Shown here: piece by piece, positions 16,655 through 57,368 of the stretch | Layout: each line of letters opens with the position of its first letter | Numbering within the stretch: the stretch's first letter is position 1 | Assembly (NCBI GenBank): GCA_017453465.1 | Contig: JAFTEV010000019.1 | Span: 1-57,511, forward strand | DNA from: Bacteroidaceae bacterium | GTDB taxonomy: Bacteria > Bacteroidota > Bacteroidia > Bacteroidales > Bacteroidaceae | DNA length: 57,511 nucleotides | Reading direction: 5' to 3' | Position numbers and translations under genes: made by a program | The notes under the pieces: model-generated | What the model was told of the DNA's origin: nothing | Databases searched by the model: none | The model's input: the letters and a program-made list of their open reading frames with translations, nothing else

Positions 16655-16906
16655 GAAAAACCAAAAAAACATCGACCTTTGACATAGACCGGGGGATGAC
16701 AGATCGGGATACTCATCAAATTACATCAGAAAACCGGGAATGCGATTCAGCCAATGGCGGGCCACACCCCGCTGTCGCCAGGTCATCGAGCCTGGAGTTT
16801 CGGCAGCCATGGGCAACTCTTCGAGTCGGTGGATTACAAAGGCTGAACCTGCGCTCAAAACTTACAAGCTCGGAGTTTCATCACATCTCCTCCCTCGGCC
16901 TTTTTC
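16655..16906 (+). ncRNA. Unidentified structured noncoding RNA candidate
   Basis: A closing stem pairs AGACCGGGGGA (16686-16696) with TCCCTCGGCCT (16891-16901), with one mismatch and one GU, and is followed at once by TTTTTCT. Inside, TTCAGCC (16746-16752) pairs with GGCTGAA (16841-16847) and encloses GCGGG/CCCGC, CCAGG/CCTGG and a CCA..ACTC/GAGT..TGG arm; CCGGG can pair with CTCGG. A promoter lies just upstream and no open frame is convincing. I recognise no known family (no RNase P, tmRNA, SRP or 6S signature). Confidence 0.55.
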
Positions 16907-51880: not shown

Positions 51881-52002
51881 TCGCCGCTTTGGATGCCCAG
51901 TGCCATCCGTTTTATTCCGTTCTCCAGCCGAAAAAATACTTCGTTTCCATCCAAGCGCAAAACTTTTTTCCCCTCCCGCTTGCATATTCCCCACGGAATC
52001 TT

Positions 52003-52010
52003 TACCTTTG
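52003..52010 (+). promoter_or_regulatory. Promoter -7 box of the 6S-like RNA
   Basis: TACCTTTG, with predicted transcription start near 52017. Confidence 0.65.
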
Positions 52011-52016
52011 CACCGT

Positions 52017-52198
52017 GCTTTTAGTAGCACAGACTTTTTATTTGCTCAATTCTCTGCCGAACTACCACCTCGAAAGAGTTTCACGAGCAAAATCTTATAC
52101 CTATTGGAGTATGCGCTTGATGGCGCAGACTTCTCCATAAGGTATAAGTGGCTGTGGTAGGCCCGGCAGAGATATGGTGGGTCTGCGCTTTCTTTTTG
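52017..52198 (+). ncRNA. ssrS: Rod-shaped noncoding RNA, 6S RNA candidate
   Basis: About 180 bases with own promoter and U-tract. Nested helices: AGCACAGAC/GTCTGCGCT (52026-52034 with 52181-52189, one mismatch), CTCTGCC/GGCAGAG (52052/52165), CTACCAC/GTGGTAG (52062/52154), a large bubble, CTTATACCT/AGGTATAAG (52094/52140), TGGAG/CTCCA, and a terminal TGCGC-TTGATG-GCGCA hairpin. Size, rod shape and central bubble fit 6S RNA, which binds the housekeeping RNA polymerase; the family call is inferred from shape only. Alternatively GCGCAGAC (52123-52130) can pair with GTCTGCGC next to the U-tract, as in an attenuator for the next gene. Confidence 0.55.
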
Positions 52199-52296
52199 TT
52201 GCTTAAGAGTTACAGCGTTTCTGGCTCATCATCACTGAATGGAAACACTAATTCATCAAACAAACCATAGTATTAACCCTTAAACAACAAAAACTT

Positions 52297-53586
52297 ATGA
52301 GAAAAATTTTCTTCCTCCTGCTGTCCGCCCTGACAACCTTGACGGCCAGCGCACAAGTCATTAACGGCGACCTGAATCACAATACCGTGCTCGATGTAGG
52401 CGATGTGACCATGGTGATTGATGGCTATCTCACTGGCCAGACCGAAGTGGTTGGCCCCGAAGTGAACCACTACTACGTCGATTACAACATGTTGGCTGGC
52501 ACTTGGTACCGTTCCAAAACAGACAGCTTCACGCTCAACGCCGACGGTACGACCGACTACGGCAAGGGCTACACCTATAAGTTCCTGCCTTCGCAGGGCT
52601 GCATCCTGTTCTTTAATTCAGCTGGTCGTGCCGTCAGCAGCCTTCTGGTTGTGTTCTATCCCAACGACCTGAGCTACATCGTGGTCAGAGCAGCCAACTC
52701 AAACGACGTGCAGACCTACTACAACCAGCCCATCCAGCCCGTGGAAAGCATCACGCTCTCGCAGACCTCACTCGCCTTGCAGCTTGACAGCGACCCTGTG
52801 CGCCTAACAGCCACAATTGTTCCAGCTGATGCTGACAACACCTCGTATGAATGGACAAGCAGCGACGAAGATGTTGTGACCATATCTTCTCGTGGCACCG
52901 TGGAAGCCGTTGGCGAAGGCACAGCCACCATCACCTGTACCGCCCTTGACGGTTTCGGAGCTTCTGCCACTTGTGAGGTGACCGTGGGTAAAACAACACC
53001 TCCTGCCCCAGTCCCAGTTCACGAATACGTTGACCTCGGCCTCTCCGTAAAATGGGCAACCATGAACATCGGTGCAAACGCTCCCGAAGAATACGGCGAT
53101 TACTTTGCCTGGGGCGAGACTGCACCAAAGACAGACTACAGCTTAAGCAACTACAAGTGGCACAATGGCAAAGTTTACACCAAGTATTGTACTAGTTCAG
53201 ATTATGGCACCATTGACAACAAGACCGTGTTAGACCTCTCCGACGATGCAGCCAATGTCAACTGGGGCGGCACATGGCGTATGCCTACCAGGGCCGAGCA
53301 AGATGAACTCCACGATAATTGCATCTGGACCTGGACCACTCAGAATGGGGTAAATGGTTACAAAGTGACCTCAAAAACTAACGGAAAATCCATTTTCCTT
53401 CCCGCCGCAGGTCATTTCTTTAATGACAAAAACCCCGACGCAGGCAACGCCGGCGACTATCGGTCGAGTTCCATCGACCTAAAATACGGCAGCTTTGCCT
53501 ACCTCCTGCACTTCGAATCGGACTTCTCGATTCGGAGCAGTAACGTACGCGCTACGGGTTACTCTGTCCGTGCCGTCTGCCCTTAA
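52297..53586 (+). CDS. Secreted dockerin-like/Ig-like protein with paralogous C-terminal domain
   Basis: 429 aa. Signal peptide to about residue 20 (TLTASAQ). Then a single dockerin-type repeat (NGDLNHNTVLDVGDVTMVIDGYL in part), a lipocalin-like stretch (about 65-145), a Big_2 Ig-like domain (about 147-232, VTISSRGTVEAVGEGTATITC in part), and a C-terminal domain starting EYVDLGLSVKWATMNIG with DYFAWGETAPK and WRMPTRAEQDEL, a common Bacteroidetes/Fibrobacter paralogous surface domain. There is no catalytic site. Probably a surface protein. Confidence 0.78.
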   Translation: MRKIFFLLLSALTTLTASAQVINGDLNHNTVLDVGDVTMVIDGYLTGQTEVVGPEVNHYYVDYNMLAGTWYRSKTDSFTLNADGTTDYGKGYTYKFLPSQGCILFFNSAGRAVSSLLVVFYPNDLSYIVVRAANSNDVQTYYNQPIQPVESITLSQTSLALQLDSDPVRLTATIVPADADNTSYEWTSSDEDVVTISSRGTVEAVGEGTATITCTALDGFGASATCEVTVGKTTPPAPVPVHEYVDLGLSVKWATMNIGANAPEEYGDYFAWGETAPKTDYSLSNYKWHNGKVYTKYCTSSDYGTIDNKTVLDLSDDAANVNWGGTWRMPTRAEQDELHDNCIWTWTTQNGVNGYKVTSKTNGKSIFLPAAGHFFNDKNPDAGNAGDYRSSSIDLKYGSFAYLLHFESDFSIRSSNVRATGYSVRAVCP

Positions 53587-53600
53587 TAATTAAATTTTTC

Positions 53601-53672
53601 CCCCCAACAATACCAAGCGTCTGCACATATTCACTCTGTGCAGACGCTTGGTTGTTGTGAGGATGTTTTTAT
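53601..53672 (+). terminator. Terminator, left copy of a repeated 70-bp block
   Basis: A perfect 15-bp stem CCAAGCGTCTGCACA/TGTGCAGACGCTTGG (53613-53627 with 53637-53651), followed by TGTTTTTATTATT. The whole block from CCCCCAACAA recurs at 54929-55000. Confidence 0.88.
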
Positions 53673-53721
53673 TATTTGCATTTCTTTTTTACCCATTCGT
53701 GTCCTCTACTCCTGCACTCCC

Positions 53722-53757
53722 TCCACGGCCCGTGCCCTCCGTTTTGGCGTGAAAAGG
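53722..53757 (+). pseudogene. Remnant of a secreted-protein 3' end
   Basis: The bases encode STARALRFGVK, nearly the same as the C-terminus SRALRLGVK of the gene at 49772-51583, including nucleotide identity over CGTGCCCTCCG. No frame upstream is kept, so it is a fossil of a paralogue or of a recombination event. Confidence 0.5.
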
Positions 53758-53930
53758 TCACCCCGTTTCAGTGTTTATGTGTTGTCAAACAGGTATTGCT
53801 TGTCACATCATTGATTTGAAAAAAGAGTGGGGAAAATAATGGTGATGTGACATTCTGAGGAAAAAAGAGGATTTCTTTGGCTGCATTATTCTTTTTCTTA
53901 AAAAAGTTTGGTTATTTCAGAGAAAAGCAA

Positions 53931-53938
53931 TACCTTTG
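53931..53938 (+). promoter_or_regulatory. Abi promoter -7 box
   Basis: TACCTTTG; the predicted start near 53945 coincides with the base of the leader hairpin. Confidence 0.65.
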
Positions 53939-53943
53939 CACCA

Positions 53944-54000
53944 ACAGTTCCCGCCACGCCTCCTAACAATGCGTACCACGGCGGGACTTCGTCTTTTATA
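53944..54000 (+). ncRNA. abiF-like RNA motif (Abi leader hairpin)
   Basis: AGTTCCCGCC (53946-53955) pairs with GGCGGGACT (53980-53988) with one bulged T, and ACGC/GCGT (53956-53959 with 53971-53974) extends it around loop CTCCTAACAAT. It starts at the predicted transcription start and ends 17 bases before the Abi ATG. A conserved RNA named abiF is known next to Abi_2 genes; place and C-rich stem agree, but I could not align it. Confidence 0.6.
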
Positions 54001-54005
54001 AGGGA

Positions 54006-54899
54006 ATGAGATATAGCAAGCAACCGACAGACATCACCACTCAACTTACCATGCTGAAGCAACGTGGTCTTATTGTCAATGATGAAGACGCAGCCTTGAA
54101 GCAACTCGCTTCAATCAGTTATTTCCGCTTGGCCAGCTATTGGAAAATCTTCGAGACAGATGAAGTGACACATCAATTTGCCAGCGATACCTGCCTCGAA
54201 GACATTCTTTCGATATATACATTCGACAGGGATTTGCGTTCCATCATCTTCACCGCCATACAGGACATTGAAGTGGCTCTGCGAACACGTGTCATCCATT
54301 ACTTCTCCATGGCGCATGGCGCATTTTGGTTTATGGATGCATCGAAGTTCAACAATCGCGGCATCTTCCAAACATGTCTCGACAGCATACAGCTGGAACT
54401 AAGCCGCTCGAAGGAGGATTTTCTACAGGAACATTTTGCCAAGTATAGTTCGCCATCCATGCCCCCTGTATGGAAGACGCTGGAAGTCGTTTCCTTCGGC
54501 AACCTCTCAAAGCTATATGCCAATATGAAAGATGTGGAGGTGAAGAAGCTGGTGGCAAAGAGTGTAGGTCTGCCTCAGTACACCTATCTGGAAAGTTGGA
54601 TGCGCAGTCTCACCGTCCTCCGCAATTGCTGTGCCCATCATGCTCGTGCATGGAACCGCCGTTATCCAGCTATGCCGCAGTTGCCAAAACGCTTGCCTCT
54701 TACATGGGTTGATACGCAACACATACGACCGATGAAGTTATATGCCCAGTTATGTACTCTGCTTTATCTTGAACAGAGCATCACGCCTAATAGCCACATC
54801 AAAGAAAGATTGTTGAACCTTCTCAAAGCTTATCCTCACACCATCACCAGGCAAATGGGCTTCCCACGTGCTTGGGAGAATGAACCATTGTGGCAATAG
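54006..54899 (+). CDS. Abi_2 (AbiD/AbiF) family abortive-infection protein
   Basis: 297 aa, typical length. The N-terminal signature MRYSKQPTDITTQLTMLKQRGL (in part), IVNDEDAALKQLASISYFRL and YWKIFE is that of Abi_2. The family has a HEPN fold; an RX4H motif is visible at R206-H211 (RNCCAHH), preceded by the conserved SWMRSLTVLRN. Abi_2 proteins abort phage infection, probably as RNases held in check by a partner RNA. A structured leader and promoter lie upstream, and a MntA/HepT pair follows on the other strand. Copies of one 70-bp terminator block sit on both sides. Confidence 0.93.
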   Translation: MRYSKQPTDITTQLTMLKQRGLIVNDEDAALKQLASISYFRLASYWKIFETDEVTHQFASDTCLEDILSIYTFDRDLRSIIFTAIQDIEVALRTRVIHYFSMAHGAFWFMDASKFNNRGIFQTCLDSIQLELSRSKEDFLQEHFAKYSSPSMPPVWKTLEVVSFGNLSKLYANMKDVEVKKLVAKSVGLPQYTYLESWMRSLTVLRNCCAHHARAWNRRYPAMPQLPKRLPLTWVDTQHIRPMKLYAQLCTLLYLEQSITPNSHIKERLLNLLKAYPHTITRQMGFPRAWENEPLWQ

Positions 54900-54928
54900 T
54901 TTTTTTTCTCCTTTTTTCCCTCGTTTAT

Positions 54929-55000
54929 TCCCCCAACAAAACAAGCGTCTGCACAGATTCAGTCCGTGCAACGCTTGTTAGTTGTGAGGGTGTTATTATA
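54929..55000 (+). terminator. Terminator, right copy of the repeated 70-bp block
   Basis: About 85 percent identical to 53601-53672. Stem ACAAGCGTCTGCAC/GTGCAACGCTTGT with one gap, followed by GTGTTATTATAA. It ends the Abi transcript and may also act on the leftward HepT gene. Confidence 0.8.
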
Positions 55001-55376
55001 AGAAGTCCTTTTGTTGTTCCCACAGACTCCAGTCTGTTTCGTCAAGCAACTTTTGTATATTGCTTTTTAAGGGGGTGAGGTCATGCTGTATTACTTGCCA
55101 AACGATGTGTGAATCTACCTGGTAGTAGCCGTGGACAAGGTGGTGGCGCATGTCTGCGATGTCTTGCCATGGAACTTCTGGATGCTGCGTGACAAAAGCT
55201 CTGCTTAGCTTGTATGTAGCTTCGCCGATAATCATTGTGTAATACACGATGGCTCCAAATAGAATCTTGTCCGTAGCAAACGCCTCATACGTAATGTGCT
55301 GCGTGTGTTCTTGAATCAGGTCTATGGATTCCATGATGTGGCGCAGACGTTCTTTGTCTCTAAGTGGTTCTCTCAT
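54996..55376 (-). CDS. hepT: HepT-like HEPN toxin (DUF86)
   Basis: 126 aa all-helical HEPN-family protein. The RNase motif RX4HXY is complete: R77-H78-H79-L80-V81-H82-G83-Y84 (MRHHLVHGYY). In characterised pairs HepT cuts RNA, and MntA silences it by adding AMP groups to the motif tyrosine, here Y84. It overlaps the upstream nucleotidyltransferase gene by 17 bases, in the usual order antitoxin then toxin. Confidence 0.92.
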   Translation of the reverse strand: MREPLRDKERLRHIMESIDLIQEHTQHITYEAFATDKILFGAIVYYTMIIGEATYKLSRAFVTQHPEVPWQDIADMRHHLVHGYYQVDSHIVWQVIQHDLTPLKSNIQKLLDETDWSLWEQQKDFL

Positions 55377-55656
55377 AAATCAGAATTTTATCACGGTTGG
55401 CTGTTTCTGCGGCGTATGATTTTAGGGAGCCTTCTGTTACCAAATCGACCGTGCGGCCTAATAATCTTTCGATGTCTCCCCACATTCCAAAGAACTTGAG
55501 GCCAATGACTTTGCTGTGGTCAAGAGCTACCAGTATGTCAACATCGCTGTCAAGCCGTTCTTCGCCTCTGGCATAAGATCCGAAGAGCCATGCTTTTGTC
55601 ACAGGCTGTGTCTTGAAATAATTGGCCAAAGTTTGCTTTATTGTTTGTGTGTTCAT
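55360..55656 (-). CDS. mntA: MntA-like minimal nucleotidyltransferase antitoxin
   Basis: 98 aa protein with the minimal nucleotidyltransferase core GSYARGEERLDSDVDILV (G26-S27 then D38 and D40; third acidic residue D71 in the RTVDLVTEG strand). It would AMPylate the HEPN partner. Its ATG follows a minus-strand -7 box TATTTTTGC (55691-55699). Confidence 0.92.
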   Translation of the reverse strand: MNTQTIKQTLANYFKTQPVTKAWLFGSYARGEERLDSDVDILVALDHSKVIGLKFFGMWGDIERLLGRTVDLVTEGSLKSYAAETANRDKILIYERTT

Positions 55657-55690
55657 ATCTGTGCAAGGCTTTGTTTTTTGTTATTTTGCT

Positions 55691-55699
55691 GCAAAAATA
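55691..55699 (-). promoter_or_regulatory. mntA-hepT promoter -7 box
   Basis: Minus-strand TATTTTTGC, about 35 bases before the mntA ATG. Confidence 0.5.
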
Positions 55700-55832
55700 G
55701 AGAAAAGATTTTATTGCTGCAAATTTTAATCTTTGTTATGTTTGGGTTGGAGCAAAAAAACATGTGGGGAATGGTGGGCGTTCTGATGATTTGGTTTAGT
55801 TTGAAAGCTACGGCTTTTCTTTTTCTATTGTG

Positions 55833-57368
55833 TCAGAAGTCCAGCGTCACGCCTACGCCGAAGACGCGGTTGGTGCGGTCGAACTTGTCGGTGCCAGCGA
55901 GGAAGTCGGCGTTGGGGATGAGTCCTTGGGCTGCAAGGGCTTGTGGCGCGGTGACTCCTGCGGGCAGGGTGGAGCCGAGGGAGCGGACGGCTGTGGCGGC
56001 AAGACTTCCGTAGTCGGCCTGGGTGCGCTCGTAGGTGTTGTAGATGGTCTGGAAGTAGGCGGCTTCTACGGCTACGATCTTGTTGATTTGCCACTTCAGT
56101 CCGAAGCCGAAGGTGTTGGAGTTGGTGGCAAAAGAGATGTCGCGCATGTATTCGTCGGTGTTGGGGTAGCGGGTGGTCTGCCAGCCTGCGCTGAGGGTCC
56201 AGTCCTTGGTGAAGTCCCATTCGGCACCAGCCGTGATTTCCCATGTGCCGCCAGAGAGTTTCTTGTGTTCGTCGCCGAACTTGGTGGCCTGTTTGTCGAA
56301 GAAGTAGTGGAAGCCGCCGTTGATGCGCACTTGCTTGATGGGGGAGTACATGGCTCCCACGGTGAGGATGGCGGGCACGTCTTCTTCCACCTTGTGCCCG
56401 TCTTCGTACTTTTCAAGGTTGTGGCCCTCGGTGTTTTCGTTGAAGCTTTCGTTCTTGAGGCGTATCTTGGTCTTGAACTCAAACTTGGCTGCAAAGTTCC
56501 AGTGGTCGTTCAGTTTCCAGTCAATGCCGATGATGGGCGTGAGACCCCAGCCGTCTTGGTTGCAGTTAAGGCCGATGTTGCCTGAGAGGTCGTCGAGCCT
56601 GTAGCCCAGCTGGTCAATCTGTGCGTGGGCAGCGTTGGCTGTGGTGTTGTCGATGTAGCCAGCCTCGGTGATGCGCTTGTAGTAGTCGTGCTGCGCTGCC
56701 ATGAACTCGCGGGCGGTGTAGTAGTTGTTGTCGGTGTACTGGAAGCGGATGTTCTTGACGTAGCCGAAGTAGTTGTTGGTGACGTAGAGTAGGCGCAAGC
56801 CGCCATAGATGCTGAGTTTGTCGAAGAACTTGCGGGCTGCACCGAACTGTACTCCATACTGATAGGAGCGTCCGCGCATGAAGGTGTCGAACTTGTAGCT
56901 GGGTGTGCCTTGGCTGTTCTTGAAGCCGTATTGCCCGGCTATCATGCTGAGGGCAGACACGGCAGACTCGAAGGAGGGCAGTCCGTTGTCGTACTTGCAC
57001 TTGCCGCCGCCGCCAATCAGACCGAAGTCGAAGCTGAAGGACCAGAGTTTGTTGGCTGTGTTGTAGGCAAATTGCAGGCTGGGCAGGATGGGGGCGTTGG
57101 CGTCTCCCTTAAACTTCTTGGTGGTTTCGCCGCCGTTGTCGGCTCCGAAGGCGAAGGGGGCGTAGCTGGTTGTCACGTCGCGGCTCTGCTTCACGTTCAT
57201 CAGTCCGATGGAGAGGTGAAAGCCTGGGCTGAGGAATGCCGAACCAGCGGGGTTGTTGTATAAAGAGGTGATGCCAATGGCTGCATCCTGCGACGGATTG
57301 CGCAGGAATGCGATGCTCTGGTTTGTGTTGGTCAGATAGCCACCAGCCAGGGCTGGCACTGTGCTCAT
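55833..57368 (-). CDS. FadL/OmpP1-type outer membrane protein, 5' end cut by an insertion sequence
   Basis: 511 aa from the first in-frame ATG. The body is an intact FadL-family barrel (IAFLRNPSQDAAIGITSLYNNPAGSAF in part; C-terminal FGVGVTLDF ending in Phe). The family normally has an N-terminal signal peptide of about 20 residues; here the frame opens with NLAMSTVPALAGGYLTN, which is only the last part of a signal peptide ending at ALA-GG, and the upstream part is replaced by insertion-sequence DNA starting at 57374. The protein from the internal ATG lacks the n-region and most of the h-region, so export is doubtful and the gene is likely inactivated. It would carry hydrophobic compounds across the outer membrane. 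Confidence 0.88.
   Translation of the reverse strand: MSTVPALAGGYLTNTNQSIAFLRNPSQDAAIGITSLYNNPAGSAFLSPGFHLSIGLMNVKQSRDVTTSYAPFAFGADNGGETTKKFKGDANAPILPSLQFAYNTANKLWSFSFDFGLIGGGGKCKYDNGLPSFESAVSALSMIAGQYGFKNSQGTPSYKFDTFMRGRSYQYGVQFGAARKFFDKLSIYGGLRLLYVTNNYFGYVKNIRFQYTDNNYYTAREFMAAQHDYYKRITEAGYIDNTTANAAHAQIDQLGYRLDDLSGNIGLNCNQDGWGLTPIIGIDWKLNDHWNFAAKFEFKTKIRLKNESFNENTEGHNLEKYEDGHKVEEDVPAILTVGAMYSPIKQVRINGGFHYFFDKQATKFGDEHKKLSGGTWEITAGAEWDFTKDWTLSAGWQTTRYPNTDEYMRDISFATNSNTFGFGLKWQINKIVAVEAAYFQTIYNTYERTQADYGSLAATAVRSLGSTLPAGVTAPQALAAQGLIPNADFLAGTDKFDRTNRVFGVGVTLDF

Follow-up and report, generated by a model that had tools for sequence, protein, structure and literature searches.

Is the short hairpin in front of an Abi_2 gene in a Bacteroidaceae genome only the leader of that gene, or is it the antitoxin of an RNA-controlled toxin? 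The locus lies at 53931..54899 on the + strand of contig JAFTEV010000019.1 (assembly GCA_017453465.1, 85% complete and 6% contaminated), a 57,511-nt stretch of DNA that is here called the window. Such systems have been published before: abiF RNA restrains AbiF, a homodimeric HEPN RNase (PMC12373285, PMC12737573). Our comparisons confirm the window locus as a new member of this known toxin-antitoxin family. We regard it as highly probable that it forms a type III-like module of AbiF toxin and abiF-RNA antitoxin, in which the RNA, rather than being a leader only, is better regarded as an antitoxin that doubles as the toxin leader.

The AbiF gene and its leader RNA

The proposed toxin RNase is an AbiF-type Abi_2 HEPN protein of 297 aa, encoded by an intact frame of 297 codons (54006..54899, + strand). 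Abi_2 (PF07751, 188 bits) is the only domain that Pfam finds in it, and the PADLOC AbiD model matches it with 241 bits. The HEPN catalytic motif, RNCCAH (R206-H211; codons 54621..54638, + strand), has the form R-N-x3-H, and R206, N207, and H211 are invariant in 16 aligned relatives and in all three RNA-bearing or RNA-less groups compared. A single PDB entry matches at E 0.01 or better—PbAbiF of the PbAbiF-AbiFr system from a Prevotellaceae bacterium (8VZ6 chain A, E 2e-58)—and it does so over residues 8-297: RNCCAHH in the window protein aligns with RNSCCHH in PbAbiF, and both proteins have RNxCxHH and the C-terminal MGFPRxWExEPLWQ. The first-pass annotation of this DNA had named the product an Abi_2 HEPN protein, which the Pfam score, the full-length kinship with PbAbiF, and the R-N-x3-H motif bear out. 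An anti-phage role for this AbiF is predicted by homology only. Abi_2 is matched twice in the source assembly, and no abiF-like RNA precedes the second gene (C45, 40 bits).

The proposed antitoxin is a hairpin at 53946..53988 (+ strand). The annotation had described it as a stem of 9 bp plus 4 bp ending just before the ATG and had suspected an abiF RNA. Both points stand: the pairing is as described, with one bulged U in the 9-bp stem, and cmscan matches all 37 positions of the Rfam abiF model (RF03085) at 53950-53986 with 43.7 bits, above the gathering cut-off of 37. In the lower stem, A53946-G-T pairs with 53986-53988, U53949 is bulged, and CCCGCC (53950-53955) pairs with GGCGGG (53980-53985), giving 9 bp in all with the outer pairs counted. 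The upper stem joins ACGC (53956-53959) to GCGT (53971-53974) in 4 bp. From the end of the hairpin at 53988 to the ATG at 54006 there are 17 nt, and from the end of the Rfam core 19 nt. The hairpin within a 45-nt stretch has a folding energy of -16.4 kcal/mol (z -2.8), which 4 of 200 shuffles match; in 80 nt of context, z weakens to -1.0. A covariance model that we built from RNAs of the window's clade only, R1, matches 53943-53992 with 58.9 bits, the window being part of its training set. A search of the 85% complete assembly found one abiF RNA, the one at this locus.

A promoter-like site lies 5' of the RNA at 53907..53938 (+ strand), with TTTG at 53907-53910, a 20-nt spacer, and TACCTTTG at 53931-53938; we take the pair TTTG/TACCTTTG to be a Bacteroidota-type promoter. 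Across the family, TAnnTTTG ends 10-13 nt 5' of the RNA core in 106 of 121 loci, compared with 0.8% at random positions in the same loci, so that the transcript start that the annotation predicted at the foot of the hairpin is well supported. Between the hairpin and the start codon runs a U-rich tail of 17 nt (53989..54005, + strand), possibly a weak terminator or attenuator and a processing site. The weak terminator-like match here (53980-53993 plus TTTT) is formed by the 3' arm of the abiF RNA itself; terminator-like sites in the region number 3 against 1.4 in shuffles, with no separate hairpin between the RNA and the toxin frame. A competing terminator hairpin via GGCGGG was set aside; it has 5 pairs, compared with the 9 of the abiF stem.

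What surrounds the unit? An imperfect palindromic repeat brackets it (left copy 53598..53668 and right copy 54930..54994, neither assigned to a strand; 87% identical), and the right copy has no match in the other fetched loci. Only these two places were found in the assembly, and the reading as a genome-wide terminator family was dropped. The same flanking pair was the only direct repeat in 53560-55040; there are no array-like repeats beside the gene, and on this search we dropped a CRISPR or tandem-repeat RNA. Type VI CRISPR (Cas13) systems combine two HEPN motifs in one chain with a CRISPR array, and classical type III toxin-antitoxin systems (ToxIN, CptIN, and TenpIN) combine a ToxN-like toxin with a tandem-repeat RNA. 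The locus is none of the latter, with Abi_2 as its sole Pfam match and no repeat family at the RNA. Downstream by 96 bp, on the opposite strand (54996-55656), are HepT-like and MNT-type nucleotidyltransferase genes resembling a type VII toxin-antitoxin pair, with NCBIfam equivalog scores under the cut-off. Elsewhere in the window, a Bacteroidales-1 RNA (suggested 6S RNA) matches at 16688-16906 with 96 bits.

Conservation, covariation, and apparent mobility of the unit

Is the hairpin kept next to homologous genes? In 26 homologue loci, one of which begins inside the gene (L017), cmscan places an abiF RNA before the gene in 17 (L004-L016, L025, L026, L028, and L029). The distance from the end of the core to the start of the gene match is exactly 19 nt in 13 of these 17; it is 20 nt in L010 and 22 nt in L015 and L016, and L028 is without a gene start. 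Divergent hairpins below the Rfam cut-off occupy the same place in L018-L024 and L027.

Covariation was assessed for 12 stem pairs across the wider clade of the window, using 30 distinct RNAs. Two-sided changes occur in 6 of the 12 pairs (22 cells), and 88% of cells are paired; sliding the partner lowers this to 28-45%. Neither the observed covariation score nor the cell count was reached by any of 500 shuffles; the number of further pair types was reached by 94 of 500 and so shows no excess over chance on that measure. RNAalifold finds a 9-pair core with five compensatory pairs. The window's three outer closing pairs are more poorly conserved, being unpaired in 7, 7, and 19 of the 30 sequences. 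The annotation had named, as one half of what would refute its reading, a leader neither conserved nor covarying beside Abi_2 homologues; the leader is conserved and covaries.

When positions 52000-57000 of the window were compared by BLAST with L004-L014, a single block was conserved. It starts at 53890-53918 in 10 of the 11 loci (53775 in L014) and ends at 54893-54901 in 8 (54828 in L011, 54816 in L013, and the contig end in L014), and nothing outside it matched except a second abiF RNA in L009. Because the block is conserved and its flanks are not matched in close relatives, promoter, RNA, and ORF appear, from these alignments, to move as one unit. Relatives occur in 72 phage records, all under 60% identity, and in 422 plasmid records, with a best identity of 54%. 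IMG/VR contains one locus at 77%, with its own abiF RNA (49.4 bits) and, by eye, a recombinase-like frame nearby.

Distribution of the RNA and the protein residues that accompany it

How common is the abiF RNA, and how much of it does the reference model see? With Infernal's stricter filters, it was found in 98 of the 301 genomes of the window's family (121 matches listed, 4 below the cut-off), and Abi_2 was found in 127 of the 301. Among the matches listed, 134 Abi_2 genes score at least 99 bits, and 125 of them are at least 500 nt long. An Rfam abiF match lies upstream of 44 of these 125 listed genes, one of the 44 being below the cut-off. We fetched 80 of the 81 motif-less genes (G208:C38 was left out), and 41 carry a variant hairpin—15 of type A, 11 of C, 7 of B, 7 of D, and 1 of A2—in a shared promoter-hairpin-U-tract-ATG order; cmscan at gathering called abiF in none of the 41. 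Types were set by regular expression (by hand for L018, L023, L024, L158, L164, L176, and L201), and L189 was typed C despite a stem that appears broken in its outer part. With the 41 variants and one listed match below the cut-off, Rfam misses 42 of 85 RNAs, or about half, before full-length Abi_2 genes among the matches listed. R1 recovers types on which it was not trained (7/7 of D, 7/7 of B, one of them at E 0.007, and 6/11 of C); at E up to 1 it finds no RNA before the 29 genes of a deep RNA-less group, of which 27 are on the protein tree described below, or the 6 of a second RNA-less group. R1 also matches once in L191 and once in L194, at positions that do not precede the fetched gene.

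In the wider phylum, the Rfam abiF cut-off is reached in 2 of 296 genomes, both of the window's own family, and Abi_2 is found in 32 of 292. R1 was run on 20 of 28 fetched out-of-family loci (L264 and L268-L274, with partial or broken matches, were left out) and finds an upstream same-strand RNA in 16 of the 20; Rfam calls none of these 16. The four loci without an R1 RNA are L261 and L265-L267. A canonical-looking hairpin can be seen by eye in L261, called by neither Rfam nor R1. The window's own Rfam score of 43.7 bits compares with 58-63 for the best family members. These searches show a predicted abiF RNA that is more widespread than the reference Rfam model detects.

Does the kind of RNA follow the kind of protein? 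We placed RNA types on a tree of 134 proteins, made by a quick method that gave long-branch warnings and including three "canon" rows of non-AbiF proteins. The tree omits L194, L203, L214, and L220 (unclear N-termini) and L158, L164, L169, and L206 (no in-frame ATG), L158 and L164 carrying type D RNA. RNA type changes 11 times on this tree (minimum 8), against a shuffled mean of 81.5. PbAbiF falls within a canonical-RNA clade of 34 rows (support 99). The window falls within a 13-row clade of its own RNA subtype (support 98), inside a 41-row clade (96), and unlike PbAbiF's clade this subtype has a GCGUACC bulge and an ACUUCGU foot. In print, the RNA with which PbAbiF was solved is termed the AbiF ncRNA (PMC12737573, PMC12373285).

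The presence of the RNA coincides with a protein signature made up of HHxRxWN and a C-terminal W; a six-gene group is the one exception. In the 98 RNA-bearing rows (PbAbiF counted), H212, R214, W216, N217, W290, and W296 occur at 96-100% and W234 at 88%. In the deep RNA-less clade of 27 rows, R206, N207, and H211 remain while each signature residue is under 20%. The exception is a 6-row clade that keeps the signature residues although no RNA was found, which weakens the rule. Out of family, 15 intact genes have HHxR (14 of them followed by xWN) and R1 finds an RNA in 14, whereas three genes with another signature (L265-L267) have none by R1. The RNA-carrying AbiF of phiC2 keeps R, N, and GFPxxW, with HY replacing HH. 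The deep Abi_2 group as a whole (L205 and L207-L234) keeps the R-N-H motif without HHxRxWN and the C-terminal W, and no RNA was found there. As far as our literature searches show, the extent of unrecognized RNA variants, the accompanying residues, and the count of toxin-less RNAs given below are new, though parts of these comparative results may be in Weinberg 2017 or Zilberzwige-Tal 2025. The residues that accompany the RNA can be tested, and the locus itself is a minimal version of the system (a ~45-nt RNA, a 17-nt tail, and a 297-aa protein) outside the clade of the one solved AbiF found in the PDB.

Antitoxin, regulator, guide, or relic

What might the hairpin do? AbiFCd of C. difficile is toxic and is neutralized by its RNA, RCd22, in cis and in trans, with R202 and H207 required, and PbAbiF binds one RNA per monomer (PMC12373285, PMC12737573). 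Like the window locus, the AbiFCd-RCd22 loci (phi027/phiC2) combine Abi_2 with an upstream abiF RNA (37.6 bits in phiC2) and the R/N/H motif; AbiFCd is 27% identical to the window protein. A single promoter serves RNA and toxin there, and RCd22 comes with a pair of abiF motifs and a terminator of its own (PMC12373285); the window locus has a single motif and lacks such a terminator hairpin. The one Rfam-called motif of phiC2 lies 74 nt before the ORF, compared with 19 nt before the ATG in the window. Like C. difficile, the out-of-family loci L256-L259 and L263 show, by eye, a clear terminator hairpin that is distinct from the RNA and lies between it and the ATG. By analogy with these systems, toxicity, RNA binding, and neutralization would be expected at the window locus, and its hairpin very probably neutralizes the toxin; attenuation and phage defense we infer.

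In the proposed mechanism, one promoter would give a transcript that starts a few nt before the abiF hairpin and can run into the AbiF frame. With the hairpin as leader of the toxin mRNA, early termination or cutting is needed to yield free antitoxin; the hairpin could be freed by termination at the U-tract just 3' of it, by AbiF cleavage of the leader, or by both. Freed hairpin would bind each monomer of AbiF, a presumed homodimeric HEPN RNase, and block its activity. A fall in RNA supply, for example through shut-off or degradation of host RNA by a phage, would release the toxin, which would cut RNA and stop growth. RNA-bearing loci have a U-rich tail upstream of the ATG: the best 8-nt window has a median of 7 T in 97 rows versus 5 in 33 RNA-less leaders (p 9e-13, uncorrected for relatedness). 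We rate attenuation at the U-tract as plausible rather than stronger because the tail is less U-rich in the window's own clade (median T fraction 0.58 in the first 12 nt).

A tentative extension, on the doubtful side, is that the hairpin is antitoxin and terminator at once: a stop at the U-tract would yield free antitoxin and read-through would yield toxin, so that a change in RNA synthesis would be sensed directly. The separate terminator hairpins of C. difficile, L256-L259, and L263 would then do the same job, and toxin-less abiF RNAs would be antidote genes against incoming AbiF elements.

Could the hairpin instead control AbiF expression only in cis, as a leader or a phage sensor without antitoxin function? 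Its position within the leader, with the start codon 17 nt away and a U-rich tail, would suit such a role, as would the lactococcal AbiD1 case, in which a phage protein binds the abiD1 5'UTR, and the lowering of abiF expression in cis by RCd22 (PMC12373285). Yet RCd22 is active in trans as well, and PbAbiF is bound by its RNA (PMC12373285, PMC12737573). Moreover, direct binding would lead one to expect what is observed: RNA subtype follows the protein clade, and the presence of an RNA largely coincides with residues that are not part of the catalytic motif. We therefore consider control in cis alone improbable. Another reading, in which the hairpin directs AbiF to particular transcripts much as a guide directs Cas13, is suggested by the proposal that AbiF is the ancestor of Cas13, with which it shares HEPN RNase descent (PMC12373285, PMC12737573). 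The annotation had likewise linked such HEPN toxins to Cas13, a link that is in print in these papers. Unlike Cas13, however, the window AbiF has a single HEPN motif in its 297-aa chain, with no array and no spacer beside it, and hairpin and tail are alike between close relatives. With no variable segment seen, we drop the guide reading, which has barely any probability left. Given the proposed ancestry, the workings and variation of the RNA partner nonetheless bear on how an antitoxin RNA became a guide.

The remaining alternative, a decaying and inactive relic kept by horizontal movement only, draws on the frequency of abiF RNAs without an intact toxin. Of 121 RNA-first loci, 8 end at a contig edge, and in the 113 that could be evaluated, with an AbiF profile built without three non-AbiF frames, the toxin is intact in 41, a remnant in 30, and not recognizable nearby in 42; 72 of 113 thus lack an intact toxin. 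The window locus, though, has every part intact (frame, catalytic residues, promoter, and RNA), and frame and stem persist in several relatives at 85-90% identity, so a relic is very improbable here.

Seen from the toxin, the pattern is the reverse. Outside the two RNA-less groups (29 and 6 genes), 85 of 89 toxin genes have an adjacent RNA among the matches listed, and the four without one are L169, L194, L203 (truncated), and L206 (broken). L169 lies ~1.4 kb from the RNA of L112, with a transposase-like frame between. This one-way pattern is consistent with a toxin that depends on the RNA as its antitoxin. We treat it as supportive only, because a toxin gene of ~890 nt is a ~24-fold larger target than the 37-nt RNA core and because the RNA-first search selects intact RNAs.

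Some toxin-less RNAs look well preserved. In four genomes of genus g20 (L031, L034, L035, and L042), an abiF RNA has a promoter, a U-tract, and a compensated stem (CCUGCC/GGCAGG), with no AbiF remnant within 1.5 kb downstream; it is a candidate stand-alone antidote RNA. Other abiF RNAs, some degenerate, precede different genes: RhuM (L139, L141), a Bro-N protein (L056), ORF6N (L122), HigB with an HTH protein (L139), and an HTH protein (L118). They may have arisen by chance replacement or through reuse of the leader. In a B. fragilis plasmid (L241), the annotated Abi CDS (572-1588) swallows the abiF RNA (637-673), since it begins upstream of the RNA; the likely ATG is at 692.
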